Part shown: piece after piece, positions 2,815-60,240 of the stretch
How positions within the stretch are numbered: position 1 is the first letter of the stretch
Layout: every line of letters starts with the position of its first letter
NCBI GenBank assembly: GCA_011391635.1
Contig: JAABQD010000014.1
Location: forward strand, 1-60,319
Length of the DNA stretch: 60,319 bases
Reading direction: 5' to 3'
Origin: Sulfurimonas sp.
GTDB lineage: Bacteria; Campylobacterota; Campylobacteria; Campylobacterales; Sulfurimonadaceae
The notes under the pieces: generated by a model
The model's database searches: none
Told to the model about the DNA's origin: nothing
What the model saw: only the letters and a program-made list of their open reading frames with translations
Translations under genes and position numbers: made by a program

Positions 2815-3627
2815 TTATGCAGCTGAGAGAATTTTTTCTACTGTTTCATTAAAAAGATTTGGATTCATCCCATACTCTTCTACGAGTTCACGAGCATTTT
2901 TGAGTGTTGTTTCTGTCATAGTTCCTTCGAGTGTAATTGCCTCTTTTGCAACTTTCAAAAACTTTGCCATCTCTTGTGTCTCTGGGTCTGATGCATCTTC
3001 TGGTTCGTTCGCATAGCGAATGAGATGCACCAAATCTGGGTCAAAATTCCATCGATTAAAGAGTGTCGCTGTCACATCTTCTGATTTACTTCCACATGCC
3101 AAGATTTCTGCTTGTTGTGTTTGATTCCCTTTTGCTAATGCTTCACTTAGAAGTACCGCTTGACCTGATTCGATGAGATAGCGACTGATAACAATTTTGC
3201 CGAGTTCAAGCAAAAAAGAGGCGATAGAGAGGTGTGCGAGAAGTGTTTTATCCACTTTAGTCACCCATCGATTGATAAGTGCGTTTTGCAATTGTGCTCG
3301 TGCTAGATAGTTGTTTTGTGTCATTCCATAAGGTGAGAGGTCTATATCCATACAATTGTTCGCAGCAGAGGCAATGGTAAATGTTCGAACAGCATCTTTA
3401 CCTAGGAGTGAGATAGCTTGTGACACATCTGTAACTTTACGGCTTAGACCATACATAGGAGAGTTGGCAGTTTTGAGAATATAAGCGGTAATAATAGGGT
3501 CTTGTTTGACTGCTTCCGCCATTTCAGATACACCACTCTCTGGATTGTTATACACTTTTTCGACTTTTAACACTGTTTCTGGGAGCATTGGAACATGCTC
3601 GATTTGCTCCATTAATTCGGGTCTCAT
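2815..3627 (-). CDS. HDOD-domain signalling protein
   Basis: 270 residues, essentially one HDOD domain. HDOD proteins are non-enzymatic relatives of HD phosphohydrolases that act as scaffolds in bacterial signalling. Recognisable family sequence: the LPETVLKVEKVYNNPESG start, the QDPIITAYILKTANSPMYG helix, and AISLLGKDAVRTF near residue 90. No second domain is attached. The codons for Leu-Ala-Cys-Gly (3091-3101) are an exact copy of the dispersed 11-mer. The start follows GGAGAA directly. Partners are unknown; the flanking c-di-GMP enzymes and lone response regulator suggest a signalling role. Confidence 0.88.
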   Translation of the reverse strand: MRPELMEQIEHVPMLPETVLKVEKVYNNPESGVSEMAEAVKQDPIITAYILKTANSPMYGLSRKVTDVSQAISLLGKDAVRTFTIASAANNCMDIDLSPYGMTQNNYLARAQLQNALINRWVTKVDKTLLAHLSIASFLLELGKIVISRYLIESGQAVLLSEALAKGNQTQQAEILACGSKSEDVTATLFNRWNFDPDLVHLIRYANEPEDASDPETQEMAKFLKVAKEAITLEGTMTETTLKNARELVEEYGMNPNLFNETVEKILSAA

Positions 3628-3809
3628 TCATTTCTCCAAAAAATATTTAAACTATCTGTTTCAACACTTCAAAGATTTTATTTGTGAATACAAAACAAAA
3701 TTTTTACTGTTAAAAGATGTGTATTAACATACACTAGCTCTGAGTATTGTAACATATTTTTAAGTTTTTCTTATATTCTATGTCAAAATGAGAGTGCTGT
3801 ATTGATCTC

Positions 3810-4256
3810 TTAATCGAGTAAAATAGTCTCTAGGTTTATTGTCTGGTGAAACTCAAAATGGTGCGTACACCACTTTTCGATAAAAGCACTGATACCCGTC
3901 AGGTGTTTCGTTTTTGTTACTAAATCTTTGATGTTATAGGGTTTTACTAAATAGTCGTCTGCTCCGGCTTTAAGAGCTTTTATCACATCATCTTTTGTGG
4001 AGAGTGCTGTTACCATAAGTATGGGAACACATCGTAGCTGTTCATCCATTTTAATAAGTTTGACGCCCTCGAAGCCATCAATTTCAGGCATATTTATATC
4101 CATCAAAACGAGAGATATTTTATGCGTTTTCATAATAGTTATTCCCTCTTTTACAGAGAGTGCAGCATAGGGAATATACCCCTCTTTTGAAAGTACCAAA
4201 GTAGCAACTTTTATATTGTGCGGATTGTCATCTATGATTATAATATTTTGAGCCAT
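3810..4256 (-). CDS. Single-domain response regulator (REC)
   Basis: 148 residues with a complete receiver domain and no DNA-binding output. The acidic pair is Asp9/Asp10, the phospho-acceptor is Asp53 in LMDINMPEIDG, the conserved Thr is 83 and the Lys is 105 in VKPYN. About 25 residues after the receiver (FIEKWCTHHFEF onward) match no domain I recognise. Such stand-alone receivers act by protein contact, as CheY or Spo0F do. No cognate kinase is adjacent. It is divergent from ccsBA, with a 160-base gap containing a long inverted repeat. Confidence 0.9.
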   Translation of the reverse strand: MAQNIIIIDDNPHNIKVATLVLSKEGYIPYAALSVKEGITIMKTHKISLVLMDINMPEIDGFEGVKLIKMDEQLRCVPILMVTALSTKDDVIKALKAGADDYLVKPYNIKDLVTKTKHLTGISAFIEKWCTHHFEFHQTINLETILLD

Positions 4257-4303
4257 GCCAAATTATATTGCTTGAAAATGAAGATTGAATGAAGATAAAT
4301 TGC

Positions 4304-4344
4304 ATCTCTCTTTTTGATATGTGTATTATTAAAAAGAGAGAGAT
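4304..4344. promoter_or_regulatory. Long inverted repeat in the divergent promoter region
   Basis: ATCTCTCTTTTT (4304-4315) is followed after 15 bases by AAAAAGAGAGAGAT, giving a 12-bp stem with a small GA bulge. It lies between two gene starts (response regulator on -, ccsBA on +), where a terminator is not expected. An operator, or a terminator for a short upstream transcript, are the options. Confidence 0.45.
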
Positions 4345-4416: not shown

Positions 4417-7400
4417 ATGAAAAATTTACTCTCTTCCCTTGGTTCTATGAATACAATGGTTATTTTGATGCTTCTCTTTGCAGTGGCATGTGGATATGCT
4501 ACATTCATTGAAAATGATTATGGAACAATGACTGCAAAAGCGGAGATTTATAACGCTTTGTGGTTTGAAATTTTACTTGGACTTTTGGCTGTGAACCTTG
4601 TTCTTAATATAGTTAAGTTCAAAATGTACACACTTAAAAAAGCTCCGATATTTATCTTTCATATCGCATTTCTTGTGATACTTTTTGGTGCAGCGATTAC
4701 CCGTTATGTAGGCTTTGAAGGCTCTATGCATATCCGTGAGGGCGAGAGTGCTTCAGTTATGAGTAGTTCGGATACTTTTTTTAGTGTTTATGCTTCAAGC
4801 AACGACAAGAATGCTTCATCCGAGCAAAAAGTATATCTCTCCAAAAAATCTTCAAACAGACTCAACTCCTCTTTGGTTGTTGATGGCAAAGCAGTTGAAG
4901 TTGAGATGCTTGAGTATATACCAGATGCAGTGGAGATGATTGTCGAAGATAAACAAAATGGCACGGCTATGGCAAGTGTGATGATAAGTGCAGGTGGTCG
5001 TGGTGAGCCTGTAATACTCAAGCAAGGTGAAGCGTATGAGAGTGAAAATTTTGTTTTAGATTTTGATTCAAATGAGAGTTTTGACAAGCCTGTAATTTCG
5101 GTTTTTGTAGAGAATGGAACACTCTTTATGAAGCATCCAATGGCTCTGAATTTCCTGAAAATGGATGATGGCTCCAAGGGTGAATTGGCTATAAGTGAGA
5201 AAGGGCCATTTACGACACGAACACTTTTTACGAATGGAAATAGTAGTTTTGTACTTCGTGAATTTCTTCCACATGCCAGTAAAAAACTTATCTCCAATCC
5301 AAAAGCAACCGCAAAACAAGCTGGTGCAGATGCATTTCGTTTTCAAGTAAGCGTGGCAGATAAATCAGAAGTGGTTACGCTTTTTGGTATGGCGGGAGCC
5401 TTGCCAAGAGAGTCGCATACAGTTATCAATGGGGTCGATGTTCATCTCTCTTATGGTGCAAAAGAGATTCAAATTCCATTTGAAATCCTTCTCAAAGATT
5501 TTCAACTTGACCGCTATCCAGGCTCTATGAGTCCAGCTTCGTATGCGAGTGAAGTTGTTTTGGTGGACAAAGAGCAAAAAATCGAGATGCCGTACAGAAT
5601 TTTTATGAATAATATTTTGACACACCGTGGATATAGATTTTTTCAAGCATCGTATGACCAAGATGAGCAGGGAACAGTTCTCTCTGTCAATAATGATCCA
5701 GGGACACTGCCGAGTTATATCGGCTATTTTCTTTTAGGGCTTGGAATGTTTTGGTCGCTTTTTTCAAGAGAGAATCGATTTGCAAAATTGGCTCAAAAAG
5801 CAAAAAATGTGAGTGAACAAAAGGGAGTTGCTCTTTTGTTGGCATGTGGAATATTTTTGAGTATCACACCTTCGTATGCACAAGATACACAAGCGATTTT
5901 TGCTTTTGACGCTCCACATGCCAAAAAATTTGGCGAGTTGGTAGTGCAAGACAGTGGTGGGCGAATGAAGCCAATGGACACACTTGCAACAGAGATTTTG
6001 GCAAAAGTTCATAGAGGCTCAAGTGTCAATTTCGATGGGCATCTCCTTGATGCCAATCAAGTGGTGCTTGGCATGATGGTGCGTCCAGATGTCTATAGAG
6101 ATGTAAAAATGATTTATACAAAAGATGAATCTATCAACAAAATCATCGGAGCAGAGGCGAATGAGAAGTATGTCTCTTTTTCTCAGTTTTTTGTCAAGCC
6201 TGAATCTTTAGAGGGCTACAAACTCGCAAGTGCAGTTGAAGAAGCAACACGCAAAGAGCCAAAACATAGAAACAATCTCGACAAGATGGTATTAAACATC
6301 GATGAGCGAGTGAATGTGGTTTATATGGTTTATACAGGTTCACTCATCAAAATGTGGCCAAAACCAAATGATTTAACCAATAAATGGTTCTCAACTATCG
6401 AAGCTCTTCAAGAGTTTACACCAGAAAATAGTGAAAAATTACGCATTTTAGCGGTAGAGTATTTTACATCGATTGATGAGGCACTCGTGAGTGCTTCTTG
6501 GAGCAAACCAAACCAAGCTATAGAAAAAATTGCTGAGTATCAGAAATTTTATGGAGCAGAGGTTTATCCATCGCAAAATCGAATTTTAGCAGAGGTTTTT
6601 TACAACAAAGCGAAAATTTTTGAGACCATCTATCCACTCTACTTTTTGATAGGTTTTGTTCTTCTGATAGTGAGTTTTATAAAAATACTTAAACCAAGTT
6701 TCAATATCAAAATCTATACTAAAGTGACATTGGCACTTTTAATAGCACTCTTTATCGCACATACAATCGGTCTCATAAACAGATGGTACATCTCAGGTCA
6801 CGCACCGTGGTCGGATGGATATGAGTCTATGATTTACATCGCTTGGGCAACAGTTTTGGCAGGATTTATCTTCTCTAAACGCTCAAGTATGACAATGGCT
6901 TCTACGGGAGTTTTGGCGGGGCTTATCTTGTTTGTGGCACATCTCAATTGGATGAATCCACAAGTTACAAATCTCGTTCCAGTTCTCAACTCCTATTGGC
7001 TGAGTATCCATGTCTCTATGATTACGGGAAGTTACGGCTTTTTGGGGCTTGGGGCTTTACTTGGATTTATAACTATTATTTTATTTGTTCTCAAAAATCC
7101 TGCGAACGAAAAACATATCACGCTCTCCATCAAAGAACTCAATGCTATCAATGAGATGAGTTTGATGGCGGGATTGGTTCTTTTGACTGTCGGAAACTTT
7201 TTGGGTGGTGTTTGGGCAAATGAGAGCTGGGGACGCTACTGGGGCTGGGATCCAAAAGAGACTTGGGCATTGGTCACTATTTTGGTCTATGCGGTTGTGC
7301 TTCACCTGAGATTTATCAAATCACTCTATAGTGATTTCAACTTTAGTGTAATTTCGCTTTTATCGTTTACATCGGTTATTATGACCTATTTCGGGGTAAA

Positions 7401-7530
7401 CTATTATCTTGCAGGGCTTCACTCCTACGCAAAAGGTGACCCTGTGCCGATTCCTGATTTTGTGCCTGTTACCTATTTGATTATTTTTGTATTGATAGCA
7501 ATGGCGTATAAAAATAGAAAATTGGTTTAA
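4417..7530 (+). CDS. ccsBA: Fused cytochrome c synthase CcsBA (system II)
   Basis: Carries haem across the inner membrane and ligates it to CXXCH motifs of periplasmic c-type cytochromes. The 1,037 residues match the fused CcsB-CcsA form known from Wolinella, Helicobacter and Campylobacter. The first half is ResB-like, with helices near 13-30, 45-65 and 75-95, a large periplasmic domain and a helix near 435-455. The second half holds the CcsA helices. The haem-handling WWD motif, WGRYWGWDPKETWAL, is at residues 938-952. Three exact copies of the 11-mer lie inside (4484, 5840, 5913), plus one at 5268. The SD AAAGG (4403-4407) lies in a small hairpin with GCCTTT (4390-4395). A DUF2461 gene starts 12 bases after the stop. 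Confidence 0.95.
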   Translation: MKNLLSSLGSMNTMVILMLLFAVACGYATFIENDYGTMTAKAEIYNALWFEILLGLLAVNLVLNIVKFKMYTLKKAPIFIFHIAFLVILFGAAITRYVGFEGSMHIREGESASVMSSSDTFFSVYASSNDKNASSEQKVYLSKKSSNRLNSSLVVDGKAVEVEMLEYIPDAVEMIVEDKQNGTAMASVMISAGGRGEPVILKQGEAYESENFVLDFDSNESFDKPVISVFVENGTLFMKHPMALNFLKMDDGSKGELAISEKGPFTTRTLFTNGNSSFVLREFLPHASKKLISNPKATAKQAGADAFRFQVSVADKSEVVTLFGMAGALPRESHTVINGVDVHLSYGAKEIQIPFEILLKDFQLDRYPGSMSPASYASEVVLVDKEQKIEMPYRIFMNNILTHRGYRFFQASYDQDEQGTVLSVNNDPGTLPSYIGYFLLGLGMFWSLFSRENRFAKLAQKAKNVSEQKGVALLLACGIFLSITPSYAQDTQAIFAFDAPHAKKFGELVVQDSGGRMKPMDTLATEILAKVHRGSSVNFDGHLLDANQVVLGMMVRPDVYRDVKMIYTKDESINKIIGAEANEKYVSFSQFFVKPESLEGYKLASAVEEATRKEPKHRNNLDKMVLNIDERVNVVYMVYTGSLIKMWPKPNDLTNKWFSTIEALQEFTPENSEKLRILAVEYFTSIDEALVSASWSKPNQAIEKIAEYQKFYGAEVYPSQNRILAEVFYNKAKIFETIYPLYFLIGFVLLIVSFIKILKPSFNIKIYTKVTLALLIALFIAHTIGLINRWYISGHAPWSDGYESMIYIAWATVLAGFIFSKRSSMTMASTGVLAGLILFVAHLNWMNPQVTNLVPVLNSYWLSIHVSMITGSYGFLGLGALLGFITIILFVLKNPANEKHITLSIKELNAINEMSLMAGLVLLTVGNFLGGVWANESWGRYWGWDPKETWALVTILVYAVVLHLRFIKSLYSDFNFSVISLLSFTSVIMTYFGVNYYLAGLHSYAKGDPVPIPDFVPVTYLIIFVLIAMAYKNRKLV

Positions 7531-7541
7531 AAGGTTGGCAT

Positions 7542-8240
7542 GTGGAATTCACTGGCTTTAGTAAAAAGACACTCCCATTTTTAAAAGCCATCCGTGCCAA
7601 TAATAACAAAGAGTGGTTTGATGCCCACAAACGAGAGTACGAAGAGCTTATCTTAAACCCATCTCGTGCCTTTGTCATCGAGATGGGCGAACACCTTCAA
7701 GCCCTCGAACCCACAATAAATGCAGAGCCAAAAATCAATCAATCCCTCTTTCGCATCTATCGAGATATACGAAGAATGGGTGCAAACAAAGAGCCTATCA
7801 AAAGCCGAATCGGAATTATTTTTTGGCAAGGCAAAGGTTCACGACTCCAAAGTTCCTCTTTTTATCTTCACTTTTCTCCTGATGAACTTCTTGTAGCAGT
7901 GGGGATTCGATGGTTTGAAAAACCTCTGCTGGAGGCTTTTCGCGAATACATAGGAGATGAAGAGAAACGCATAGAGCTTGACGAGGTTTTGCAAGAGCTA
8001 TCGGCATGTGGATATCAAATCCTTCCTCATGGATACAAACGCTATCCCCAAGGTTTTCATTCCCACATGCCAAGTGCAGAAGTAAGCCTCTATAAAGGTG
8101 TGGCTGCAATGCAAATCTTAGAGCCAACCCTCATAGAAGATGGTGAAAAATTCATCGCTACACTTTATAAGATTTATGAAGATATGCTACCATTACACAA
8201 GATTATGTATGCAGTAAGTTTAAAAGTAAAAGAGGATTAG
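7542..8240 (+). CDS. DUF2461 (TIGR02453) family protein
   Basis: 232 residues with the family pattern: FTGFSKKTLPFLKAIRANN at the start, NKEWFDAHKREYE, then LFRIYRDIRRMGANKEPIKSRIG and FYLHFSPDELLVAVGIRWFE. The function of this widespread family is unknown. The start is GTG at 7542, which lies inside an exact copy of the dispersed 11-mer (7536-7546); AAAGG upstream gives a spacing of about seven bases. An ATG at 7540 is in another frame. Two one-mismatch copies of the 11-mer lie inside the gene (8002, 8062). The stop abuts the hemH start, so these two are probably one transcript. Confidence 0.85.
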   Translation: MEFTGFSKKTLPFLKAIRANNNKEWFDAHKREYEELILNPSRAFVIEMGEHLQALEPTINAEPKINQSLFRIYRDIRRMGANKEPIKSRIGIIFWQGKGSRLQSSSFYLHFSPDELLVAVGIRWFEKPLLEAFREYIGDEEKRIELDEVLQELSACGYQILPHGYKRYPQGFHSHMPSAEVSLYKGVAAMQILEPTLIEDGEKFIATLYKIYEDMLPLHKIMYAVSLKVKED

Positions 8241-9194
8241 ATGCAAAAAAAAGAAGCAATAGTTTTACTCAATATGGGTGGTCCAAACAACCTTGAAGAG
8301 GTGGAAATGTTTTTGACAAACATGTTTAGTGATGAGAATATTTTGACTATGAAAAGTGATCTTTTGCGAAGTATTGTAGGCACAATGATAACTTTTACAC
8401 GAACAGAAAAATCACAAGAAATCTATAGAAAAATAGGTGGAAAGTCACCTATTGTTGGACTTACAAGAGAACTTGTAAAAAAACTTCAGCGAAGAGTCCA
8501 TGAAAATATTATTGTTGATTTTGCTATGCGATACACGCCTCCTTTTGCAGATGAAGTGATAGAAAGACTCAACAAAGAGGAGGTGGATAAAATCTATCTG
8601 ATTCCTTTGTATCCGCAATTTTCAACGACGACAACCAAATCTTCGCTTGAAGATTTTGAAGAACATTATCACAACTCAAGTGGCAATGCGATTTTGGTAG
8701 AGGTCAAACACTTCTTTGAAAATCAAAATTATAATAAAGCGATAGTACAGAGAATCAAAGAAAAAATGGGAGATGCAAAGTGTGAAGATTTTGACATTGT
8801 TTTTTCTGCTCATGGACTTCCAAAAAAGATAATCGAAGCAGGAGATGTGTATGAAAACCACATTACTCGGCATGTGGAAATCATCAAGAAGATGCTTGCA
8901 GAAGAGAATATGAATTTTTATGAGGCACACTTGGCGTATCAGTCGAAGGTTGGACCTATGGAGTGGCTCAAGCCCTCACTCGAAGAGAAACTGAGAGTGA
9001 TAAAAAATCGTAATGTTATTATCTTTCCAATCGCATTTACGATTGATAACTCCGAAACAGATTACGAGCTTGATATGGAGTACCGTGAGATAGCACATGA
9101 GTTAGGATTTACAGATTACAGGGTGTGTCGATGCCCAAATGATAGTGACTTTTTCGTGGATGCACTTTTTGAACTTTATGAGAAGATGCAGTAG
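8241..9194 (+). CDS. hemH: Ferrochelatase
   Basis: Inserts ferrous iron into protoporphyrin IX, the last step of haem b synthesis in the cytoplasm. The length (317 residues) is normal. The N-terminal LLNMGGPNNLEEVEMFL, the catalytic His191 in SAHGLP and Glu272 in TIDNSETDYELD are all present. It starts right after the DUF2461 stop. It lies near ccsBA, which consumes haem, so the cluster links haem production to cytochrome c assembly. A one-mismatch 11-mer copy is at 8868. Confidence 0.95.
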   Translation: MQKKEAIVLLNMGGPNNLEEVEMFLTNMFSDENILTMKSDLLRSIVGTMITFTRTEKSQEIYRKIGGKSPIVGLTRELVKKLQRRVHENIIVDFAMRYTPPFADEVIERLNKEEVDKIYLIPLYPQFSTTTTKSSLEDFEEHYHNSSGNAILVEVKHFFENQNYNKAIVQRIKEKMGDAKCEDFDIVFSAHGLPKKIIEAGDVYENHITRHVEIIKKMLAEENMNFYEAHLAYQSKVGPMEWLKPSLEEKLRVIKNRNVIIFPIAFTIDNSETDYELDMEYREIAHELGFTDYRVCRCPNDSDFFVDALFELYEKMQ

Positions 9195-9203
9195 AGTTTG
9201 AAG

Positions 9204-9833
9204 ATGAAAATCGTTATATTTGATATGGATGGAACGCTTTTGGATTCTCAAAAAGATATTACGATTTCTATCAATCATGTGCGAAAAACAAACTACGATC
9301 TTCCAGCTTTAAGTGAATCCTTTGTAGTTGAAGCTATTAATAGACAAGTGCGAAATCTTCCTAAACTTTTTTATGAAACAGAGGAGTATCAAGAGGGAGA
9401 TAGAGAGCTTTTTGAAGCACACTATGAGAAGCAATGTGTTCAAAATCCCTATCTTTATGAGGGGATTTTAGAGCTACTCAATCAACTCTTGGCATGTGGA
9501 ATTAAACTCTCTGTTGCGACAAATGCTCCGACACTTTTTGCCCAAAGAATGCTTTCGCATCTTGGAATTTATGAGATGTTTGATGTTGTCATTGGTGCGG
9601 ACAAAGTAGAGTTTTCAAAGCCAGACCCACAAATGGTGCATGAAATTCTTAATTTCTATAGTTTTGATAGCCAAATGCACAAAGCGTGGATGGTAGGAGA
9701 CAATGTTAAAGATATGCTTTGTGCTAAGAGTGCAGGGATAGAGTCTGTATTTGCAACTTGGGGATTCTCCCCAGATGGCAAATATGAAACACTTATCCAC
9801 ATGCCAAAAGAGTTATTAGATATTGTTTTATAA
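9204..9833 (+). CDS. HAD-superfamily hydrolase, phosphoglycolate phosphatase-like
   Basis: A 209-residue HAD subfamily IA phosphatase. Motif I is FDMDGTLLDS (nucleophile Asp7, acid Asp9). Motif II Thr is in SVATNAPT, the Lys of motif III in FSKPDPQM, and motif IV is MVGDNVKDM. The helical cap between motifs I and II fits Gph or PgmB-like enzymes; the substrate cannot be read from sequence. ATG at 9204 is preferred over the TTG at 9198. Two exact 11-mer copies occur, at 9490 (Leu-Ala-Cys-Gly) and 9796 (His-Met-Pro). Confidence 0.88.
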   Translation: MKIVIFDMDGTLLDSQKDITISINHVRKTNYDLPALSESFVVEAINRQVRNLPKLFYETEEYQEGDRELFEAHYEKQCVQNPYLYEGILELLNQLLACGIKLSVATNAPTLFAQRMLSHLGIYEMFDVVIGADKVEFSKPDPQMVHEILNFYSFDSQMHKAWMVGDNVKDMLCAKSAGIESVFATWGFSPDGKYETLIHMPKELLDIVL

Positions 9834-13342: not shown

Positions 13343-13527
13343 GAGCTACTATCTTATATAATTACAAAGATTTATTTGGAAATATATCGAATAAACAAAC
13401 TACTGTAAATTTCACTTTCATGTTTCCATTCCTTTCATTTTAAGTTTCCACATGCCAAAAATATTTTTGATTTTTCTCGGAGTTAATGGAACTCTTTGTG
13501 CTACATAAAATGCAAATAGGGAGAATA

Positions 13528-48805: not shown

Positions 48806-48818
48806 GAAAAAAATTCAG

Positions 48819-48856
48819 TTCCACATGCCACAATGAAAATAGAGTGGCATGTGGAA
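48819..48856 (-). terminator. Inverted pair of the 11-mer forming a terminator
   Basis: TTCCACATGCCAC (48819-48831) and GTGGCATGTGGAA (48844-48856) form a perfect 13-bp stem across 12 bases. On the - strand it begins six bases after the stop of the ferritin-like gene, and a run of T follows (complement of 48806-48813). This is a Rho-independent terminator made from two copies of the dispersed motif. Confidence 0.8.
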
Positions 48857-48861
48857 GTGTT

Positions 48862-49671: not shown

Positions 49672-50125
49672 TACTTTCCCCTTCATTTGTTTCACAACTC
49701 TCTTTCATCTTCAGCACATGCATCTCTTCTTCTTTGCCGTTTTGCAGGTTTTCGTAGTTCATTATGGAGGCGACAAAAGCACTCATAACCATGTCCGTAC
49801 ACACTTGTTGTTGCGGTGTGACACCACCTAGTTTTTCATTCATTTTTTTGATTGCACCCTGTGCATATTCGACACTGTGGTCAATTATCATCTCTGTAAA
49901 CATCGAACCCACAACAACCGTATCTTGACACCCATTCGTTGCAAATTTTGTACCTTTGATTATGTCGCCATCTAAAAGAGCGTAAAAGATAACATACTCA
50001 CCCGTTTTCTCATCCACAGCGACCCCGACACCGCTTGGATTTTCAAGTTTTCCGTAGTTCTTTGGGTTCATTAAATGTTCAAGTGTTTGGGGGTTCATTC
50101 CCTCTGGGAGTTCGATGTTTTGCAT
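49664..50125 (-). CDS. NifU/IscU-like scaffold protein lacking one ligand Cys
   Basis: 153 residues. IscU-like landmarks are HLMNPKNYGKLENPSGVG (10-34), GTKFATNGCQDTVVVGS (58-74) with Cys66, and Cys109 in QQQVCTDMVM. The first scaffold Cys and its neighbouring Asp, normally in a CGD motif near residue 37-40, are absent; the region reads KTGEYVIFY. Two of three cluster ligands therefore remain, so ordinary 2Fe-2S assembly is doubtful. The last 30 residues are acidic. Forms an overlapping pair with the ferritin-like gene. Confidence 0.78.
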   Translation of the reverse strand: MQNIELPEGMNPQTLEHLMNPKNYGKLENPSGVGVAVDEKTGEYVIFYALLDGDIIKGTKFATNGCQDTVVVGSMFTEMIIDHSVEYAQGAIKKMNEKLGGVTPQQQVCTDMVMSAFVASIMNYENLQNGKEEEMHVLKMKESCETNEGESNE

Positions 50126-50233
50126 AATAATTCGCTTTTGTTATTAAGATAAGGGAGTATTTTAATATCATTAACATAAGACTAGCTAAAAAACAGTAAA
50201 ATAACACTCTAAAATTTGAAAAACAGAGTATTT

Positions 50234-52261: not shown

Positions 52262-52340
52262 TAAAAATTTCCACATGCCAGTTTGGGTATGACAAAAAGA
52301 GTGTTTTTTGCGACTGTTTTTTGATCAAGCTCTCGCATGT

Positions 52341-52436
52341 GGAGCTACACTTCTATTTGTGAGTCATGACAAATCCCTCGCTTTTGATTTTCATACGGTG
52401 TATGATTTTGCTACGTTCAATAGGGCTTTTGTATGA
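52341..52436 (+). pseudogene. Remnant of an ABC-transporter ATPase (3' end)
   Basis: A frame reads GATLLFVSHDKSLAFDF and ends TVYDFATFNRAFV at TGA 52434. LLFVSHD is the switch-His region of a LolD/MacB-type ATPase. The rest of the gene is gone. The TGA overlaps an ATG (52433) that opens a permease remnant, as expected of an ATPase-permease operon. Confidence 0.65.
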
Positions 52437-52756
52437 TTTTCAGGCTCACGTATAAAAGTATCCTCAACCGCAAAATCGCCTTTTTTCTTTCTCTGTTTTC
52501 TCTTGCTGTCAGCGTTGTTTTACTTTGAGGCACTTTACGAATTGAGAAAAGTTCACAGGAGCATTTTTTACATACGATAAATGAAACGGACATGATTGTT
52601 GGTGCTTCAAATGGCTTGATTGAGATTTTGATGGAAGATGCGTATGAAAAAATCACTCTCTACGGCACAATACACTTAGAAACCGCAAAAATAGCCACAG
52701 GAACTGCATCATTTGTGATAAAAGATGGCATTACTCGTTTAACACTCAATCATTAA
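52433..52756 (+). pseudogene. Remnant of an FtsX-type ABC permease, with in-frame stop and deletion
   Basis: From ATG 52433 the frame reads MIFRLTYKSILNRKIAFFL, then LSLFSLAVSVVLL, a TGA (52526-52528), then GTLRIEKSSQEHFL and TDMIVGASNGLIEIL. This is the first 70 or so residues of an FtsX-family permease, normally about 400. The frame then continues into 40 unrelated residues (YEKITLYGTIHLETAKIATG) to TAA 52756, apparently the end of another gene fused by deletion. The remaining 100 bases to the next gene hold an AT-rich promoter region. Confidence 0.65.
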
Positions 52757-52818
52757 AATCTCTTTTAAAATAATATTTATTATATAATGTTCTAAAATAA
52801 TAAAATTAGGGAGTCCAC

Positions 52819-52869
52819 ATGAGAGTAGTTCGTTTAAATATAATTTACGAAGCCCTATATTTTGATTGA
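52819..52869 (+). CDS. 16-codon leader frame before the P-type ATPase
   Basis: GGGAG lies five bases before ATG 52819. The frame codes MRVVRLNIIYEALYFD and stops at 52867, overlapping the TTG start of the ATPase in another frame. It may couple or regulate translation of the pump, or be chance. Confidence 0.3.
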   Translation: MRVVRLNIIYEALYFD

Positions 52870-55576
52870 GAGAGAGGAAGCAGAGGCTAAGATTGCAAAA
52901 AATAGTCATGATTTTGAATTAAGTAAATCAGAACTTTTTGAGAAGTTTAGAAGTTCTGAAAATGGCTTAAATAGCTCTGAAATCAAAACAAGACAAGAGC
53001 AGTTTGGTAAAAATATCATTGAGAAAAAAGCCAAAAAAAACTACATAAAAGAGTATTTTAAACAATATATTCAATTTTTTCCAATGATTCTTGAAGTCGC
53101 AGGTTTATTGGCTTTTGTGGCGGATTATTATGAGCCACATAAAAGTTACGATATTTTAGGAACTGCGATTTTTGGAGCGGTATTTGTTAATGCTTCATTT
53201 TCATTTTGGCAATATTTCAAAGCCGACAGAGCCATGGAAGCACTTTTAAAACTTATTCCAACAAATACAAAAGTAAAAAGAGATGCTCTTATCCAAAAAA
53301 TAGATGCAACGGAGTTAGTCGTTGGCGATATTATTGTCATAGAAGAGGGCGATAAAATCGCAGCAGATGCTGTTTTGATAGAGGTCAATGAACTTTATCT
53401 CAATATATCCTCTCTCAATGGCGAATCAAAACCTAGCAAAAGAGAGTTGGCATGTGGAAATACTTTACGAAGTATTGATGCAAAAAATATGGTCTATGCA
53501 GGAACAAGTGCAGTCAATGGAAGTGCTATTGCCATAGTGGTCGCAACGGGTATGGCAACAGAGTTTGGTAAAATCGCCACACTCACAAGTACGATACAAA
53601 AAGGTATGTCACCCCTTGAAAAAGAGATAGTCGGCATGACAAAAATTTTTACTACCATAGCACTTGTTACTGGTGTTATTTTTTTTGCTTTAGGGTACTT
53701 TTCTGGCAAAGGTTTTTTTGTTGCGGCTCTTTTTGCACTCTCTTTGATTGTGGCAAATATCCCTGAGGGTCTGCTTCCAACCATTACACTCTCCCTCTCT
53801 ATCGCTTCACAAAGAATGGCAAAGAAAAATGCACTCATCAAAAATCTTGCCTCCGTTCAAACCCTTGGTAGTGTAACAACTATCTGCACAGACAAAACAG
53901 GAACACTCACAAAAAATGAGATGACACTTCAAGAGGTTTATCTCAGCAGTGGTGAAAAAATAAAAATCAGTGGCGGTAGGTATGACCTTGAGGGTGATTT
54001 TAGTTTTGAGAATGAAAACAGTAATTCTGGGGAGCATCTCAAAAAGTTACTAGAATCTGTGCTGTTCAACTCTCGTGCTTTTATTGAAGATGGCAAAAGA
54101 GTTGGAGACCCAACGGAGCTAGCTTTAGTCGCAGCAGCTCATAAATATAAGATAGTGAATATTTTTCATAAAACAAAAGAGAATCCATTTAGCAGTGAGC
54201 GAAAAATGATGTCCTCTTTTGGTGCGATGGATGGTGAAAACAGACTTTTTGTAAAGGGTGCTCCAGAAGCTATTTTTGCAAAAACAGCCTACTATCAAGA
54301 TGAAAATGGCATTAAAGAGTTTGATGATGAGGCAAAACAAAAAATAGAAAAAGAGCTTTTAGCTTTTGAAAACAGAGCCTATAGAGTTTTGGCAGTTGCT
54401 GTAAATGATAAAGATGAAGAAGAGGGCTTAACGCTTTTAGGTTTGGTAGCAATCATGGATATAGCGCGTCCAGAGGTCAAAAAGGCTTTACAAAAATGCC
54501 ACAGTGCTGGAATCCGTATTATGATGATTACGGGGGATAATGCAAATACTGCGGCAGCAGTTGGTAGAGATATCGGACTTCATTTTGATGCTGTTTTAAC
54601 TGGTAAAGAGGTGGAGGAACTCAGCGATGAGACACTCCAAGCGATGCTCAAAGAGAAAACTTTTATATTTGCGAGAATGGCGAGTAACCAAAAGCTTCGC
54701 ATTGCCGACTTGCTTCAAAAAAATGAAGAGGTCGTGGCAATGACGGGAGATGGAGTAAATGATGCACCTTCGCTTAAAAAAGCTGACATCGGAATTGCCA
54801 TGGGAAGTGGGAGTGATGTTGCCAAAGAAGCGGGTGATATGATTCTCTTGGATGATAATTTCAACTCGATTGTTTTAGCCATAGAAGAGGGGAGAACGGT
54901 GTACTATAACATCAAAAAATTTGTGACATATATACTCGCATCCAATGTGCCAGAACTTGTCCCTTATGTACTTTCCTTTTTTCTGAAAATCCCAAATCCA
55001 CTCTCTGTTATACAAATTTTATCCATAGATTTAGGCTCAGATATGATACCAGGACTCGCTCTTGGATGTGAAGAACCTGAGAAAAATATTATGAAAAAAC
55101 CGCCAATCTCAAAAAATGAAAAAATACTCGATTGGGAAGTGTTTAAAAGGGGCTATTTTTTCATAGGCGTTATAGAAGCGAGTGCGGCTATGTTTGCATT
55201 TATAACATTTTTACTGCATCATGGTTGGCACTATGGGCAGGTGGATTTGCATGACCCACACCTTCAAGCACAAGCGATGACCATGACTCTTCTTGGTGCA
55301 ATAACAACGCAACTCGCAAACTCTTGGAGTTTGAGAAGTTGGGATTTTAATATCTGGACATTGAGTCTGACATCCAACAAAACACTCATCTTTGCATCAT
55401 TAAGCGTTTTAGTTTGGATGTGGGCTCTTTTAAATGTTGCATCTGTTCAAAAGATTTTTAATACAGCCTCTATTGACACAGCAGATTTGTTCATCCTTCT
55501 ACCGTTTCCTATACTACTTTTAGTATCGCATGAGGCATATAAATATTTTAGGCTTAAAAAATTGGATATATCTTAG
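52862..55576 (+). CDS. P-type ATPase, type II (Na+/K+- or Ca2+-like)
   Basis: 904 residues. N-terminal cation-ATPase domain, actuator loop LNGESKP, phosphorylation Asp344 in DKTGTLT, nucleotide-binding domain with KGAPEAIF, hinge GDGVNDAP from residue 629, and six C-terminal helices. LSIDLGSDMIPGLALGCEEPE and IMKKPP in the C-terminal part are close to the type IIC Na+/K+-ATPase pattern. The ion cannot be fixed from sequence. The TTG start is poorly supported; no better ATG lies nearby in frame. An exact 11-mer at 53448 is read Leu-Ala-Cys-Gly. The stop overlaps the convergent truA stop by four bases. Confidence 0.9.
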   Translation: MIEREEAEAKIAKNSHDFELSKSELFEKFRSSENGLNSSEIKTRQEQFGKNIIEKKAKKNYIKEYFKQYIQFFPMILEVAGLLAFVADYYEPHKSYDILGTAIFGAVFVNASFSFWQYFKADRAMEALLKLIPTNTKVKRDALIQKIDATELVVGDIIVIEEGDKIAADAVLIEVNELYLNISSLNGESKPSKRELACGNTLRSIDAKNMVYAGTSAVNGSAIAIVVATGMATEFGKIATLTSTIQKGMSPLEKEIVGMTKIFTTIALVTGVIFFALGYFSGKGFFVAALFALSLIVANIPEGLLPTITLSLSIASQRMAKKNALIKNLASVQTLGSVTTICTDKTGTLTKNEMTLQEVYLSSGEKIKISGGRYDLEGDFSFENENSNSGEHLKKLLESVLFNSRAFIEDGKRVGDPTELALVAAAHKYKIVNIFHKTKENPFSSERKMMSSFGAMDGENRLFVKGAPEAIFAKTAYYQDENGIKEFDDEAKQKIEKELLAFENRAYRVLAVAVNDKDEEEGLTLLGLVAIMDIARPEVKKALQKCHSAGIRIMMITGDNANTAAAVGRDIGLHFDAVLTGKEVEELSDETLQAMLKEKTFIFARMASNQKLRIADLLQKNEEVVAMTGDGVNDAPSLKKADIGIAMGSGSDVAKEAGDMILLDDNFNSIVLAIEEGRTVYYNIKKFVTYILASNVPELVPYVLSFFLKIPNPLSVIQILSIDLGSDMIPGLALGCEEPEKNIMKKPPISKNEKILDWEVFKRGYFFIGVIEASAAMFAFITFLLHHGWHYGQVDLHDPHLQAQAMTMTLLGAITTQLANSWSLRSWDFNIWTLSLTSNKTLIFASLSVLVWMWALLNVASVQKIFNTASIDTADLFILLPFPILLLVSHEAYKYFRLKKLDIS

Positions 55577-56283
55577 TATTTAATACGAGCAAGATACAGC
55601 CCATTACTCGGTGCTGGTTTTATCTTATGGTTTTTTACACATGCCAACTGTTCTTCTATTTCTTGGCATGTGGATTTTAGGAGTGCTCCTACCATAAGGC
55701 GGATTTGGCTTCTTAAAAAACCGTTGGCTTCAAAGTTTAAAACGATGGTGCCTTTGTGTTTGTAAGCGTACGCTTTGTAGATAACTCTTGTTGTAGTTTT
55801 GACATCACTTCCCGTTTTCATAAAAAACTTGAAGTCATGTTCGCCAACAAAGAGTTTGATGTTTTGTTTGATTGCCTCAAAATCCACATGCCGAATAAAA
55901 GTCACAAAATCATTCTCAAACGGATTACTCTGTGCATCTTTGATGATGTAGCGATAAACCCTTCTTTTGGCACCATATCTTGCGTGAAAATCATCACTTA
56001 CGGCTTTGATACTCTTGACTTGTATGGCATGTGGAAGCATTTGATTGCAAACTCTTTGAAGCTTCTCTAAGTCACTCCAAAAAGGGGGCAAATCCACATG
56101 GCAAACTTGTCCCGTGGCATGAACACCTTTGTCAGTGCGTCCCGAAGCTACGACCTTAGAGTCTATGGAAAGTGCGGATAGAACATGCTCTAAGTTGCCT
56201 AAGATGGTGTTTTTGGACTCTGTTTGCGTTTGAGAACCTAAAAAAGTCGTTCCGTTATAGGCAAGGGTAATCGCACAACGCAT
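55573..56283 (-). CDS. truA: tRNA pseudouridine38-40 synthase
   Basis: 236 residues. The catalytic Asp51 is in SGRTDKGVHA. The family segments LAYNGTTFLGSQ, FHARYGAKRRVYRYII and FLRSQIRLMVGAL follow. Modifies U38-40 in tRNA anticodon arms. It contains two exact 11-mer copies (55664, read Ser-Thr-Cys-Gln; 56025, read Pro-His-Ala) and three one-mismatch copies (55636, 55883, 56093), the densest stretch in the window. It starts one base after the permease stop upstream. Confidence 0.94.
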   Translation of the reverse strand: MRCAITLAYNGTTFLGSQTQTESKNTILGNLEHVLSALSIDSKVVASGRTDKGVHATGQVCHVDLPPFWSDLEKLQRVCNQMLPHAIQVKSIKAVSDDFHARYGAKRRVYRYIIKDAQSNPFENDFVTFIRHVDFEAIKQNIKLFVGEHDFKFFMKTGSDVKTTTRVIYKAYAYKHKGTIVLNFEANGFLRSQIRLMVGALLKSTCQEIEEQLACVKNHKIKPAPSNGLYLARIKY

Positions 56284-57303
56284 CTAAAATCGAGCTACAA
56301 TTGTCTTTTTATAAAGAGCGTATGTCGCTCCAAGCCAAGCAAGAGCTACAAGTGGAATCGTGTAAAATGAGAAGAGCTCTTGAAGTCCTAAAGTCGTTCC
56401 ATAAAAAATCATAATCCCTAAAAAGAGATAGAGATAGATACGACCTTTTTGCACCCTCGTATGGACAATGCTGATAGAAGCAACCAAAAAGAGGCTCAGT
56501 ATAGGAAAAAGTGATAGAAGCGTGTCTGTAATGAGCATATGATTTTTGCTCTCTCTTCTATCGTTGGAGAGCCAATACTCTAACGGTGTTCTGTAGAGCG
56601 TTTGGTCACTACTCATCGTATCATTGATGTTCATCGTCTCAAAATCGATTTGAGAAAACTTCTCTTTGGAGTAGCTATAACCCTCTCCGTTTGTGAGTTT
56701 GAGTCTAAGAATGCCAGAGTCGTTTGTTATTTCACCCTCTTTAGCACTGATGAGTATCTCCTCTTTTTTGTTTTTGTTAAACAAAAAGATATCTCCATAG
56801 GTTCCATTAGGGTTGTTTTTTCCGATATAAAGGAGCCAATTGCCAAAACTATGCCCAAATTCAGAAGCAGAGAGATTGAATTTTGCTTCTCCTTTTTTAT
56901 AAGAAACGAAGTTGCTCGATAACACAGTGGCATGTGGAAAGAGTATGAAAAAATCAAACGCAAGAAGAGCTGATAAAATCATGGCTGGTTTGAGCAGTGT
57001 TTGGATGATAAATTTTGGATGGATTCCAAGGGCAAATAGGACGATGATTTCGTTATCAGTAGAGAGACGAAAGAGTGTCAATGAGGCTGCAATAAAAAAA
57101 GTTACAGGCAGAGTATAGAACAAAATCTCTGGCAAAACAAAGAGATAGAGTTGTGTCATTTCCCAAAGTGAGAGTTGAATAACCGCGGTATAAGTTGCTA
57201 GTTTTATCAAAAAAATCACAGATGCGATGGAAAAAAGCGGAAGAAATATCGATAAAAAGAGTATAGATAAGTTGTTTATTATATATTTTTGAAGTCTGTA
57301 CAT
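56284..57303 (-). CDS. LptF/LptG-family lipopolysaccharide export permease
   Basis: 339 residues of the YjgP/YjgQ family: three helices at the start (ILFLSIFLPLFSIASVIFLI, then the LPVTFFIAAS segment near 65), FALGIHPKFIIQTLLKPAM, a periplasmic jellyroll about 130-240, and three helices at the end. It draws LPS from the inner membrane with LptB. Whether F or G cannot be told; the partner is not adjacent. Sits in a - strand run truA-lpt-prepilin peptidase-uppS. An exact 11-mer at 56928 is read Pro-His-Ala. Confidence 0.87.
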   Translation of the reverse strand: MYRLQKYIINNLSILFLSIFLPLFSIASVIFLIKLATYTAVIQLSLWEMTQLYLFVLPEILFYTLPVTFFIAASLTLFRLSTDNEIIVLFALGIHPKFIIQTLLKPAMILSALLAFDFFILFPHATVLSSNFVSYKKGEAKFNLSASEFGHSFGNWLLYIGKNNPNGTYGDIFLFNKNKKEEILISAKEGEITNDSGILRLKLTNGEGYSYSKEKFSQIDFETMNINDTMSSDQTLYRTPLEYWLSNDRRESKNHMLITDTLLSLFPILSLFLVASISIVHTRVQKGRIYLYLFLGIMIFYGTTLGLQELFSFYTIPLVALAWLGATYALYKKTIVARF

Positions 57304-57305
57304 CG

Positions 57306-58124
57306 TTAGTAATTTGCCTCAATATAAGCTAAAATAGGGCTATCAAGCAGATAAACTATAAATGTTGCCATTGCCAAAAATGGAACAAAAGGAACTTTTT
57401 GCTCCTCGCTTGAGCGACCTCTGAGAGCTAACATAACAGGAAGTGCCAAAAGAGCTGATAAAAAAATGGCAACAAGCGTGAGTTTTACGCCAAGCAATGC
57501 TCCCATGGTGCTTGCTACCATGATATCTCCTTCGCCCATTGCTTCGATAAATGGGTATGTGTGATAATGTTTTGTCCAAGAAGTCTGTGTTTTTTTGGCT
57601 TCTCGTTGTGCAGATGCAGTTAAAAAATAGGAGAGTGCAAATCGAAGAAGGGTAAATCCACCTGCAAAAATGAGAGCATTTTGCAAATTTGTAAACACTC
57701 CACCAATGCTCCAAGAGCCTAAAACAGCGAAGAATATCGCTAAAAGATTGAGGCTATCAGGAACCATTTTATATTTGAAATCTATCATGGCAAGGGCTAA
57801 AAGCATCAAAAAACTCATCCCAATGAGAAAAATAGGAAAACTGATGCCAAATTTGTACGCTAAAACTAAAAAGATAAGCCCAGATAAAAACTCTATAACA
57901 GGGTATTGCAGAGAGATTTTTGCATCACAAAAGGAGCATTTGCCTCGTAAAACAATCCATGAAACAAGCGGGATATTGTGCCAAGCTTTCAGAGAGTTTC
58001 CACATGTCGTACAATGAGAAGATGGGAAGATTATGCTCTCATTTTGTGGTACTCTTAAAATAACAACATTCAAAAATGAGCCAAGAACAGCTCCAAAAAC
58101 AAAAGCAAAGAGGAGTTGTTCCAT
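57306..58124 (-). CDS. Type IV prepilin peptidase (A24 family)
   Basis: 272 residues. GSFLNVVILRVP start, zinc-type cysteines Cys38, Cys41, Cys63 and Cys66 of the N-methyltransferase part, and the two catalytic aspartates, Asp115 in MIDFKYKMVPD and Asp200 in MGEGDIM. It cleaves and methylates type IV prepilins or type II secretion pseudopilins. In Campylobacterota such systems may serve DNA uptake, which is relevant to the dispersed 11-mer. ATG overlaps the uppS stop by one base. Confidence 0.93.
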   Translation of the reverse strand: MEQLLFAFVFGAVLGSFLNVVILRVPQNESIIFPSSHCTTCGNSLKAWHNIPLVSWIVLRGKCSFCDAKISLQYPVIEFLSGLIFLVLAYKFGISFPIFLIGMSFLMLLALAMIDFKYKMVPDSLNLLAIFFAVLGSWSIGGVFTNLQNALIFAGGFTLLRFALSYFLTASAQREAKKTQTSWTKHYHTYPFIEAMGEGDIMVASTMGALLGVKLTLVAIFLSALLALPVMLALRGRSSEEQKVPFVPFLAMATFIVYLLDSPILAYIEANY

Positions 58125-58801
58125 TATTTTAAGCCTCCAAAACGGCGTTCTACTTGTGTGAATTCATGTATGATTTTTTCAAGTTGAGAGATACTAAAAT
58201 CTGGCCACAAAGTGTCGCAAAAGAAGAGTTCTGCGTACGCTGATTGCCAGAGTAAAAAATTTGAGAGTCTGTGGTCTCCACCTGTACGGATGAGTAAATC
58301 GACATCATGCGGACAGTCCAGTGCATTACTTAGCATGGCTTCGGTTATATCATTTTCGCAATTTTTTAGCTTGTTAATAGCTCTGAGAATCTCATCCTGT
58401 GCACCGTAATTCAGTGCCAAAGATTGGACTAAACCATCGCAATGTGCAGTTTTTTCTTTGACCTCTTGTATAGTTTTTTGAAGTGATGCAGAAAAAGCTC
58501 GGATATCGCCGATAGGCTCAAAGCGGACATTATTTTCTAAGTAAACTGGAAGTTCATTTTTGAGGTAACTCTCAAGGAGTTTCATCAAAAATTCAACTTC
58601 AAGGCGTGGTCTTTTCCAGTTTTCAGTAGAAAAAGCATAGAGGGTTAGTCGCTCGATATCTTGATGGTTGGAGCAGTAGGTTGTTATCTCTTTGACAACT
58701 TTTGCCCCAGCTTCATGTCCTTTGACTCTTTTTTTGCCCTGAATCTCAGCCCAACGCCCATTTCCATCCATGATAATAGCGATGTGTTTTGCCTGATTCA
58801 T
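58124..58801 (-). CDS. uppS: Undecaprenyl diphosphate synthase
   Basis: 225 residues. HIAIIMDGNGRWA with catalytic Asp12, GHEAGAK, TLYAFSTENWKRP, and LLIRTGGDHRLSNFLLWQSAYAE with the metal-binding region. Makes the C55 lipid carrier for peptidoglycan and O-antigen synthesis. Overlaps the prepilin peptidase start by one base and precedes coaBC's end by 37 bases on the same strand, so the run may be one operon. Confidence 0.95.
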   Translation of the reverse strand: MNQAKHIAIIMDGNGRWAEIQGKKRVKGHEAGAKVVKEITTYCSNHQDIERLTLYAFSTENWKRPRLEVEFLMKLLESYLKNELPVYLENNVRFEPIGDIRAFSASLQKTIQEVKEKTAHCDGLVQSLALNYGAQDEILRAINKLKNCENDITEAMLSNALDCPHDVDLLIRTGGDHRLSNFLLWQSAYAELFFCDTLWPDFSISQLEKIIHEFTQVERRFGGLK

Positions 58802-58838
58802 CTCTTTTTGCCTGAAAATAATTTTTTTGTATTATAGC

Positions 58839-60107
58839 TTATAAATTTTTAGCTTGTTCCAAGATGCCAAAAGCAACGCTCACTTTATTGGCATGTGGAA
58901 TGGATTCTATCTTTTCATGCGTGATAAATTCTACTTTGTTTGTGTCACTTCCAAAGCTTGAGGAGTCTTGGAGTATGTTTAAACAAACAGCGTCTATATT
59001 TTTGCTTTTTATCATATTTGAGGCATTTGCGATGGCATTTAATGCGTCCATCTCGGCTTTGAAGCCCACAGTTGTGATGCCTTCTTTGTCTATGGAGCTT
59101 AAAATATCTATATTTTTTTTCATTTTAAGTTCCCATTTTTCACCCAAAACCTCTTTTTTGAGTTTGCCATTTTGTGTAAACTCTGGCACATAGTCACTCA
59201 CCGCTGCCGCCATAAAAAGGTAGGGTTTTTTTTGTATGAGATGGATATGCTCATCTCTCATAAGAGTTGCTTTAGAGACTTTTCCCTTTTTGGCGATGCG
59301 AATAGAGTCCACCAGATACTCTTGCATCTCAAGCGTATCTTCTACGGCTATTTTGTGCATATCTGTAGGTAAATTTGCTTCAAACTTTGTTGCGATGAGA
59401 TTAACATCTGCACCTTTGCAATAGAGTGCGGTAGCTAAACTTGAAGCCATTTTGCCACTTGAAAAATTGGAGATATAACGAACATCATCAATCTTTTCTA
59501 TAGTGCCACCGCCTGTGACGATCACCATTCTATCTTCCCAAAACTCCTCTTTGAGAAGCACTTTTGCACACTTAAAAAAGATGTCCATAGGTTCAGCCAT
59601 CGCCCCATCGCCTGTGGTTTTACATGCTAACTCTTTTGTTTGTGTGTTTACAATCGTGTAGTTTGCGATGGCTAACATTTTGAGGTTGGCTTGTGTTATT
59701 GGGTTGTGTATCATGTTTGTGTTTGCTGAGGGTGCAATAATCTTGGCATGTGGAAATGCTAAAGCACATTGCAGGAGCATGGTGTCAGCGATGGCATTTG
59801 CGAGTTTTGCGATAGTATTTGCTGTTGCGGGAGCTATCACTAACAAATCCGCCCATTGCGTTGTTTTGATGTGGTTGTGGTCACTCACCCATGACTCGTT
59901 TATGTCATCGAGAATTTGATTGCCTGTGAGCACTTCAAAGCTCAAAGGTGTGACAAATTTTTTCGCAGATTCGCTCATCACTACTTTGACCTCTGCACCC
60001 GCTTTTGTAAAGAGGCGAACGAGTTCAAGTGACTTGTACACAGCGATAGAGCCAGTCACCCCAAGAAGTATTTTTTTGCCTTTTAGTAAATCGGATGGAA
60101 TGAGCAT
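58839..60107 (-). CDS. coaBC: Bifunctional coenzyme A biosynthesis protein CoaBC
   Basis: 422 residues. The N-terminal CoaC flavoprotein (about 1-180) begins GKKILLGVTGSIAVYKSLEL, holds the catalytic-region His in HIKTTQWADLLVIAPATANTIAKLA, and the ELACKTTGDGAMAEP loop. The C-terminal CoaB ligase about 190-420 has VIVTGGGTIEKIDDVRYISNFSSGKM. Converts 4'-phosphopantothenate and cysteine to 4'-phosphopantetheine. Exact 11-mer copies at 58889 and 59744 are both read Pro-His-Ala. Confidence 0.95.
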   Translation of the reverse strand: MLIPSDLLKGKKILLGVTGSIAVYKSLELVRLFTKAGAEVKVVMSESAKKFVTPLSFEVLTGNQILDDINESWVSDHNHIKTTQWADLLVIAPATANTIAKLANAIADTMLLQCALAFPHAKIIAPSANTNMIHNPITQANLKMLAIANYTIVNTQTKELACKTTGDGAMAEPMDIFFKCAKVLLKEEFWEDRMVIVTGGGTIEKIDDVRYISNFSSGKMASSLATALYCKGADVNLIATKFEANLPTDMHKIAVEDTLEMQEYLVDSIRIAKKGKVSKATLMRDEHIHLIQKKPYLFMAAAVSDYVPEFTQNGKLKKEVLGEKWELKMKKNIDILSSIDKEGITTVGFKAEMDALNAIANASNMIKSKNIDAVCLNILQDSSSFGSDTNKVEFITHEKIESIPHANKVSVAFGILEQAKNL

Positions 60108-60240
60108 GGATGACCTCTCTAGTAATTTGTTGCTATTTTATCATTAAAAATCTTAATGGCATGTGGAGTTTTGCAATAAATGCTACTCAATTGCTACCTA
60201 ATATCTGTACAATTCCATTATTATAGAAGAGGGGTTTGTT

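Follow-up and report, generated by a model that had tools for sequence, protein, structure and literature searches.

Why should a single word of eleven bases recur so often in one stretch of bacterial DNA? The question is raised by a 60,319-nucleotide (nt) stretch of a Sulfurimonas genome (the whole stretch is called the window here, and its genome is labelled G000), in which the 11-mer TGGCATGTGGA is found 36 times by exact match between positions 3091 and 60167, with 22 copies on the plus strand and 14 on the minus strand. This exact recount agrees with the number and the two orientations given in the original prediction, which had likened the word to the DNA uptake sequence (DUS) of Neisseria and the uptake signal sequence (USS) of Haemophilus. 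That likeness is supported by inverted pairs following stop codons, by variants in relatives and by conservation at orthologous sites. We consider it likely that the extended word, tYGGCATGTGGAanT, acts as a DNA uptake sequence that a type IV pilus competence machinery recognises. Its sequence is unrelated to DUS and USS; its behaviour, as judged by sequence comparison, is that of an uptake sequence. What we infer in this reading is that the word steers uptake and that a receptor binds it.

Abundance and consensus of the word

A second-order Markov model predicts 0.04 copies of TGGCATGTGGA in the window. The word is thus about 900-fold over-represented, and no other 11-mer of the window exceeds it under this model; 100 dinucleotide shuffles of the window contained no copy. 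In the whole genome (2,345,822 bases, 84 contigs), 1,041 copies were counted, 511 forward and 530 reverse, a density near 440 per Mb, while the control word (TGGCATGTGGA read backwards) had 0 and 1 copies on the two strands. Contig C1 in full carries 74 copies on the plus and 71 on the minus strand. The figure of more than 1,000 copies per genome that had been projected from the window was therefore reached, and the enrichment is not regional.

The core of the word is GCATGTGG. A logo built from 278 aligned copies, matched on GGCATGTGG, gave the contiguous consensus tYGGCATGTGGAanT, of about 14 nt, with no informative column past position +12. One-mismatch copies had been said to share the same core. 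There are 12 of them in the window, and since five are the C-first form CGGCATGTGGA, position 1 is really Y (T or C). Many scattered copies could also be the remnants of a miniature mobile element, but the 278 aligned copies have no conserved sequence past about 14 nt, and many copies are part of coding frames and stay gap-free in alignments with relatives. We give this explanation almost no weight.

Conservation at orthologous sites

The available sequence of eleven relatives was aligned to the window genome, and each copy of the form GGCATGTGGA was scored as identical or not; copies facing a gap were scored as non-identical, and 10-mers of equal GC content served as background. In the four word-rich relatives taken together, 61 of 90 copies were identical, against 3 of 79 in the five word-poor relatives. 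For the copies of the window alone, the figures were 25 of 37 and 0 of 31, respectively. Among the word-rich genomes, G151 had 23 of 25 copies identical (DNA identity 0.83, background 0.17), followed by G152 (10/16, background 0.06), G158 (12/21, background 0.04) and G153 (16/28, background 0.08). The word-poor genomes gave 1 of 17 for G149 and 2 of 21 for G150 (background 0.10 for both), 0 of 15 for G156, and 0 of 13 for each of G157 and G163.

DNA identity to the window genome ranges from 0.738 to 0.827 in the word-rich relatives, and from 0.735 to 0.803 in the word-poor ones. G149 and G150 (0.80) stand little further from the window genome than G151 (0.83), so distance does not account for the difference in site conservation. 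The genes persist without the word in relatives, which suggests that its maintenance is a property of the whole genome. Fossil copies are still visible in G150, where 522 kb contain 34 exact and 101 one-mismatch copies (control 0 and 11), to be compared with 607 exact and 140 one-mismatch copies per Mb in G000.

Placement in the genome

Placement was analysed on 443,047 bases (19% of the genome) holding 220 copies, with genes called by a simple open reading frame (ORF) rule. Intergenic DNA, which makes up 7.3% of this sequence, holds 55 of the 220 copies (25%), a 3.4-fold enrichment (P = 5e-16). Neighbouring copies separated by 40 bases or less form 20 pairs, 18 inverted and 2 direct, where about 4.5 would be expected in all. 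A stop codon precedes 12 of the 18 inverted pairs by no more than 20 bp, and four pairs are inside a called gene.

The position of these pairs is what would be expected if the word were a terminator or processing element serving many genes, or if a nucleoid or regulatory protein bound it. However, 165 of the 220 copies touch or lie inside called genes, most of them single, and in sister genomes that share these genes the copies have fallen to background level, so that no local function of the word is needed. Such a role is improbable in our view.

No strand preference could be detected. In-gene copies are on the gene strand in 71 cases and on the opposite strand in 85 (P = 0.30), in line with the lack of bias relative to gene direction noted at the outset. 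By GC skew, the G-rich strand carries 90 copies and the C-rich strand 86 (P = 0.82; origin position unmapped); the strong skew that had been named as an argument against uptake is not seen by this measure. These counts bear on whether the word could be a Chi-like site that stimulates recombination, or a site of the FtsK orienting polar sequence (KOPS) type that orients the chromosome, read by a nuclease or a translocase. Such sites would, like the word, be genome-wide, short, non-palindromic and kept at orthologous positions, but the polarity is lacking by both measures, the inverted pairs past stop codons are left unexplained, and decay across whole lineages would be unusual for them. We hold a Chi or KOPS role to be equally improbable.

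Copies in the window

With ORFs of at least 100 amino acids (aa), 25 of the 36 window copies lie inside an ORF, and 11 lie between ORFs or span an ORF edge. The essential gene glyS (33778-35886, PF02092), which had been cited as a carrier of the word, contains two copies, starting at 34260 and 35693. The 25 in-ORF copies are read as PHA (10), LACG or VACG (8), HMP (3), GMW (2) and STC (2). The copies and the C-first variants are as follows (window positions, strand).

3091-3101, minus: TGGCATGTGGA, in ORF 2815-3627
4484-4494, plus: TGGCATGTGGA, in cytochrome c assembly/ResB-like gene 4417-7530
5268-5278, minus: TGGCATGTGGA, same gene 4417-7530
5840-5850, plus: TGGCATGTGGA, same gene 4417-7530
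5913-5923, minus: TGGCATGTGGA, same gene 4417-7530
7536-7546, plus: TGGCATGTGGA, gene junction
8002-8012, plus: C-first variant CGGCATGTGGA, matches consensus YGGCATGTGGA
8868-8878, plus: C-first variant CGGCATGTGGA, matches consensus YGGCATGTGGA
9490-9500, plus: TGGCATGTGGA, in ORF 9198-9833
9796-9806, minus: TGGCATGTGGA, in ORF 9198-9833
13447-13457, minus: TGGCATGTGGA, between ORFs
22985-22995, plus: TGGCATGTGGA, in ORF 22861-23241
25013-25023, plus: C-first variant CGGCATGTGGA, one-mismatch match
25075-25085, plus: TGGCATGTGGA, in ORF 24573-25229
27180-27190, minus: TGGCATGTGGA, in ORF 26698-28764
31441-31451, minus: C-first variant CGGCATGTGGA, one-mismatch match
32022-32032, plus: TGGCATGTGGA, spans edge of ORF 31641-32027
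33048-33058, plus: TGGCATGTGGA, in sulfate permease family gene
34260-34270, plus: TGGCATGTGGA, in glyS
35693-35703, plus: TGGCATGTGGA, in glyS
39764-39774, minus: TGGCATGTGGA, in FAD oxidoreductase gene
39893-39903, plus: TGGCATGTGGA, in FAD oxidoreductase gene
40537-40566: inverted pair (40537-40547, minus; 40556-40566, plus), hairpin between convergent genes, 13 bp past a stop codon
40764-40774, plus: TGGCATGTGGA, in chemoreceptor gene
42609-42619, minus: TGGCATGTGGA, between ORFs
44131-44141, minus: TGGCATGTGGA, in ORF 43533-44714
47814-47824, plus: TGGCATGTGGA, directly past ORF 46568-47797
48820-48855: inverted pair (48820-48830, minus; 48845-48855, plus), hairpin, 6 bp past the stop of gene 48862-49695
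49513-49523, minus: TGGCATGTGGA, in ORF 48862-49695
50770-50780, minus: TGGCATGTGGA, in sulfatase-family gene
52270-52280, minus: TGGCATGTGGA, directly past ORF 50216-52261
53448-53458, plus: TGGCATGTGGA, in P-type ATPase gene
55664-55674, plus: TGGCATGTGGA, in ORF 55573-56283
55883-55893, minus: C-first variant CGGCATGTGGA, one-mismatch match
56025-56035, plus: TGGCATGTGGA, in ORF 55573-56283
56928-56938, plus: TGGCATGTGGA, in ORF 56284-57303
58889-58899, plus: TGGCATGTGGA, in ORF 58839-60107
59744-59754, plus: TGGCATGTGGA, in ORF 58839-60107
60157-60167, plus: TGGCATGTGGA, outside ORF 58839-60107, near the window end

As a side observation, a piece of the chemoreceptor gene (methyl-accepting chemotaxis protein signalling domain; window 40400-60319, query about 700-900) matches many places in several relatives, which indicates a large chemoreceptor family.

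Competence machinery and the sister lineage

A pilus cluster (C15) of the window genome encodes an MshL-type secretin together with an AAA ATPase and the E and F proteins; we take this cluster to resemble the C. jejuni system. The MshL secretin and two PilT-type ATPases score over the NCBIfam cut-offs, and a separate locus resembles a type II secretion system. The ComEC domain PF03772 is found over its cut-off, at a contig end. Among relatives, a PF03772 match was obtained in 24 of 26 genomes, the two without one being G169 (word-rich) and G150 (decayed). The comEC frames measure 421 to 443 aa in eight of nine word-rich relatives, and the model of the ComEC N-terminal domain is over cut-off in the G151 protein.

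The situation differs in the sister lineage nearest to the window genome. In G149, comEC (L320:5353-6105) is reduced to a 254-aa frame corresponding to residues 166-416 of the 420-aa protein of G151, the first 165 residues being missing. The gene dnaB, which precedes comEC in G151, was not found in the 5.3 kb upstream, where other ORFs are present instead; other ORFs flank the remnant, which is located well inside a 158-kb contig. In G150, neither comEC nor its neighbours were found in the 566 kb searched of a genome of about 2.9 Mb. This lineage thus combines a damaged or missing comEC with genome-wide decay of the word, and represents one event at most.

Distribution and variants among relatives

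Among 89 other genomes of the genus, the exact 11-mer exceeds 100 copies in six (249 to 550) and has 0 to 73 copies in the rest; 59 genomes from other genera of the order have 0 to 3. Named relatives were gathered via the pilus ATPase (80 loci, most of them Sulfurimonas, of which 50 were counted). Word counts agree between L051 (Sulfurimonas sp. CG01) and G208, between L054 (Sulfurimonas sp. UBA6014) and G041, between L049 and G221, and between L056 and G056, from which the window genome is inferred to be a Sulfurimonas in the GTDB sense. The 8-base core used in these counts, GGCATGTG, reaches 649 to 1,668 copies in nine of the 50 named genomes, 152 to 410 in three, and 2 to 69 in 38. Across the phylum (397 genomes, including G000 itself), it has 1,642 copies in G000 and at most 103 everywhere outside the genus. 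A mild over-representation of GGCATGTG (up to 103 copies, control 0 to 15) was seen in another genus of the order, in g44 genomes of family f14 (G426, G496, G523 and others).

Only some Sulfurimonas lineages carry the word, and its variants GGCATGTGAA and GGCATGTGGR occur among them. In G175 (L076, 84.6 kb), 98% of 50 cores are followed by A, and GGCATGTGAA has 40 copies where 0.13 are expected. In G182 (36 cores) and G169 (10 cores), the next base is mostly G, then A or G about equally (GGCATGTGGR). The forms GGCATGTGGA, GGCATGTGAA and GGCATGTGGR do not map to clean clades. On the pilus ATPase tree (52 proteins, 51 labelled as word-rich or word-poor with a threshold of 100), L047 and L048 group with the window genome and L049, which makes it probable that most copies were lost in L047 and L048.

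Transformation of C. jejuni is reported to depend on methylation at RAATTY. The word contains CATG and, with this precedent in the phylum, it could be the site of a restriction-modification system or of an orphan methylase that limits uptake through methylation. A methylase site would hardly consist of ten nearly fixed, contiguous, non-palindromic bases with a preference in the flanks, however; restriction sites are usually avoided, and a word so strongly over-represented, arranged in inverted pairs after genes and drifting into variants, is not expected of them. We therefore see only a slight chance that methylation accounts for the word.

A second word in the genus

With a threshold of 100 copies and three times the control, a second word of unrelated sequence, CTGCGTTT, proves strongly over-represented in 32 of 135 genomes of the genus, with up to 2,331 copies. 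These 32 genomes include none of the nine known GGCATGTG-rich genomes among the 135, of which about 102 had been counted for GGCATGTG or the 11-mer; zero overlap in nine has a chance of about 9%, kinship being ignored. In G163, G165 and G167 (L061, L063 and L066), this second word (TGCGTTT) showed no significant intergenic enrichment and no excess of inverted pairs, and on these grounds we do not class it as an uptake word.

Comparison with known uptake sequences

In the available passages of PMC12616744, DUS is described as contiguous, up to about 13 nt, and USS as discontinuous, and both are often arranged as inverted repeats acting as terminators. DUS is strongly conserved, lies in permissive core regions and is absent from recently acquired genes, according to PMC2397512. 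The word shares with the Neisseriaceae DUS, which is read by ComP, its contiguity, a similar length and hundreds or thousands of copies. It also shares the inverted repeats (used as terminators in DUS), the dialects, the strong conservation at orthologous sites and the presence of a type IV pilus machinery. It differs from DUS in having neither GCCGTCTGAA nor a CTG core, in belonging to another phylum, and in a pilus cluster that is MshL/MSHA-like; among the pilins compared, none could be recognised as a receptor. Like the Pasteurellaceae USS, it is genome-wide and has types; unlike USS, it lacks both AAGTGCGGT and a GCGG core, and AT-rich blocks do not follow it downstream. In H. ducreyi, USS is rarer and weaker and the competence genes are inactivated (PMC1626085, in the passages available), which resembles the decay in G149 and G150 with comEC damaged or missing.

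To our knowledge, no uptake word is known in C. jejuni, which belongs to the same phylum as Sulfurimonas. The passages available of PMC12616744, PMC13020248 and PMC2734928 describe uptake words from Pasteurellaceae and Neisseriaceae only; PMC13020248 is a 2026 terminator survey that reports such words in these two families, and the PMC2734928 passages concern Neisseria and Pasteurellaceae, not Campylobacterota. In the text available of PMC8308473, the term occurs in the reference list only. No report of an uptake word in Campylobacterota turned up among the papers and titles listed from the literature searched, which omits most subscription papers, and a search for the word itself returned plant, animal and human work only, among the papers listed.

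Evidence weighing against an uptake sequence

Several observations weigh against the word being an uptake sequence. The first concerns the gaps between exact copies. Five gaps exceed 8 kb in the 443 kb analysed, where 3.3 are expected, which is barely above chance. Three of them are longer than 15 kb, a length at which about 0.09 gaps would be expected from the mean spacing. Two of these three cover ribosomal-protein operons and a region with rpoB, rpoC, ribosomal and EF-Tu genes (identified by eye from the first residues), and the remaining one covers a biosynthetic cluster with AMP-ligase, ketoacyl-synthase and aromatic-lyase genes. A 10-kb gap without the exact word (L024/L025, G000 contig C1, 95-105 kb) contains a C-5 cytosine DNA methylase, a phage-type integrase and unknown genes. 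The fifth gap, at 13.4-23 kb of the window, holds solute-binding and sensor genes and an ABC transporter, and looks neither foreign nor ultra-conserved; the other four keep one to four 8-base cores each, boundary copy included. This small set would nonetheless fit a filling of tolerant core DNA that leaves ultra-conserved and foreign DNA nearly empty, and the gaps over ribosomal-protein, rpoB/rpoC and integrase/methylase genes count on the side of the uptake reading.

The second concerns the relatives. In the window genome itself, comEC is truncated by a contig end, and word-rich G169, a 1.7-Mb metagenome-assembled genome (MAG), shows no comEC match. The loss of comEC was seen in a single lineage, both members of which (G149 and G150) are MAGs. 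Conversely, G156 lost its word copies yet retains an intact comEC, and several genomes without the word still have comEC. The word-rich and word-poor states are patchy, with at least six changes on the pilus ATPase tree, and the variant genomes share orthologous copies weakly (G182, 4/12) or not at all (G175, 0/5).

The third concerns the receptor. N_methyl matches in G000 number eight, one of them below cut-off, and none of the pilins of this genome could be recognised as the receptor, in an analysis that did not use ComP itself as a query. On contig C52, a minor pilin of the GspH-like type, 215 aa long, is matched in 129 of the 135 genus genomes (E <= 0.001), some of the matches being limited to the N-terminus; it was rejected as a candidate, being about 50% identical with or without the word. 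Its isoelectric point is 8.7 in G000 and 8.8 in G151; pilin charge, compared at the 18 of 29 loci with a readable frame (11 were dropped), was rejected as a correlate of the word, as G076, with a single word copy, has a value of 9.0. The AlphaFold model of the C52 pilin (mean predicted local distance difference test score, pLDDT, 77.5) has a weak likeness to the GspH/EpsH and XcpGHIJK pseudopilins, with no match at E <= 0.001, and a sequence-profile search of the PDB gave matches limited to the N-terminal helix region. The pilB protein of G000, one of the pilin pair A/B near comEC, is 89% identical to that of G151 and 48 to 65% identical to six others, but it was rejected as a receptor marker since other close pairs cross the word groups; its AlphaFold model is poor (pLDDT 56.6). 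The tandem pilins near comEC (L035:6879-7873 and relatives) were seen to differ strongly between relatives in number and sequence.

A possible mechanism and its meaning

If the word is an uptake sequence, the type IV pilus would have a receptor, probably pilin-like, that recognises the word on free DNA, and the competence machinery would preferentially import DNA of its own kind. Copies would then spread by drive, as word-carrying DNA is taken up and recombined in; tolerant coding positions would fill up with copies, and inverted pairs would double as terminators. With the loss of uptake, decay would set in at all copies at once, as apparently happened in the sister lineage with a damaged or missing comEC.

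A wider proposal, which we put forward tentatively and regard as rather doubtful, is that Sulfurimonas evolved DNA-word mating barriers independently: two or more words of unrelated sequence (GGCATGTGGA and its variants on one side, CTGCGTTT on the other), which no genome counted for both was seen to combine, may split the genus into separate gene-exchange groups, and loss of uptake may erase a word genome-wide.

Should the uptake reading be true, the word would be a third DNA uptake word, unrelated to those of Neisseria and Haemophilus and found in another phylum, where it would be the first one known to us, and an independently evolved receptor would be indicated. The relatives, in which the word is full, variant, decaying or absent, would be natural replicates, and could serve to test what makes such words spread: drive, selection for recombination or a change of receptor.

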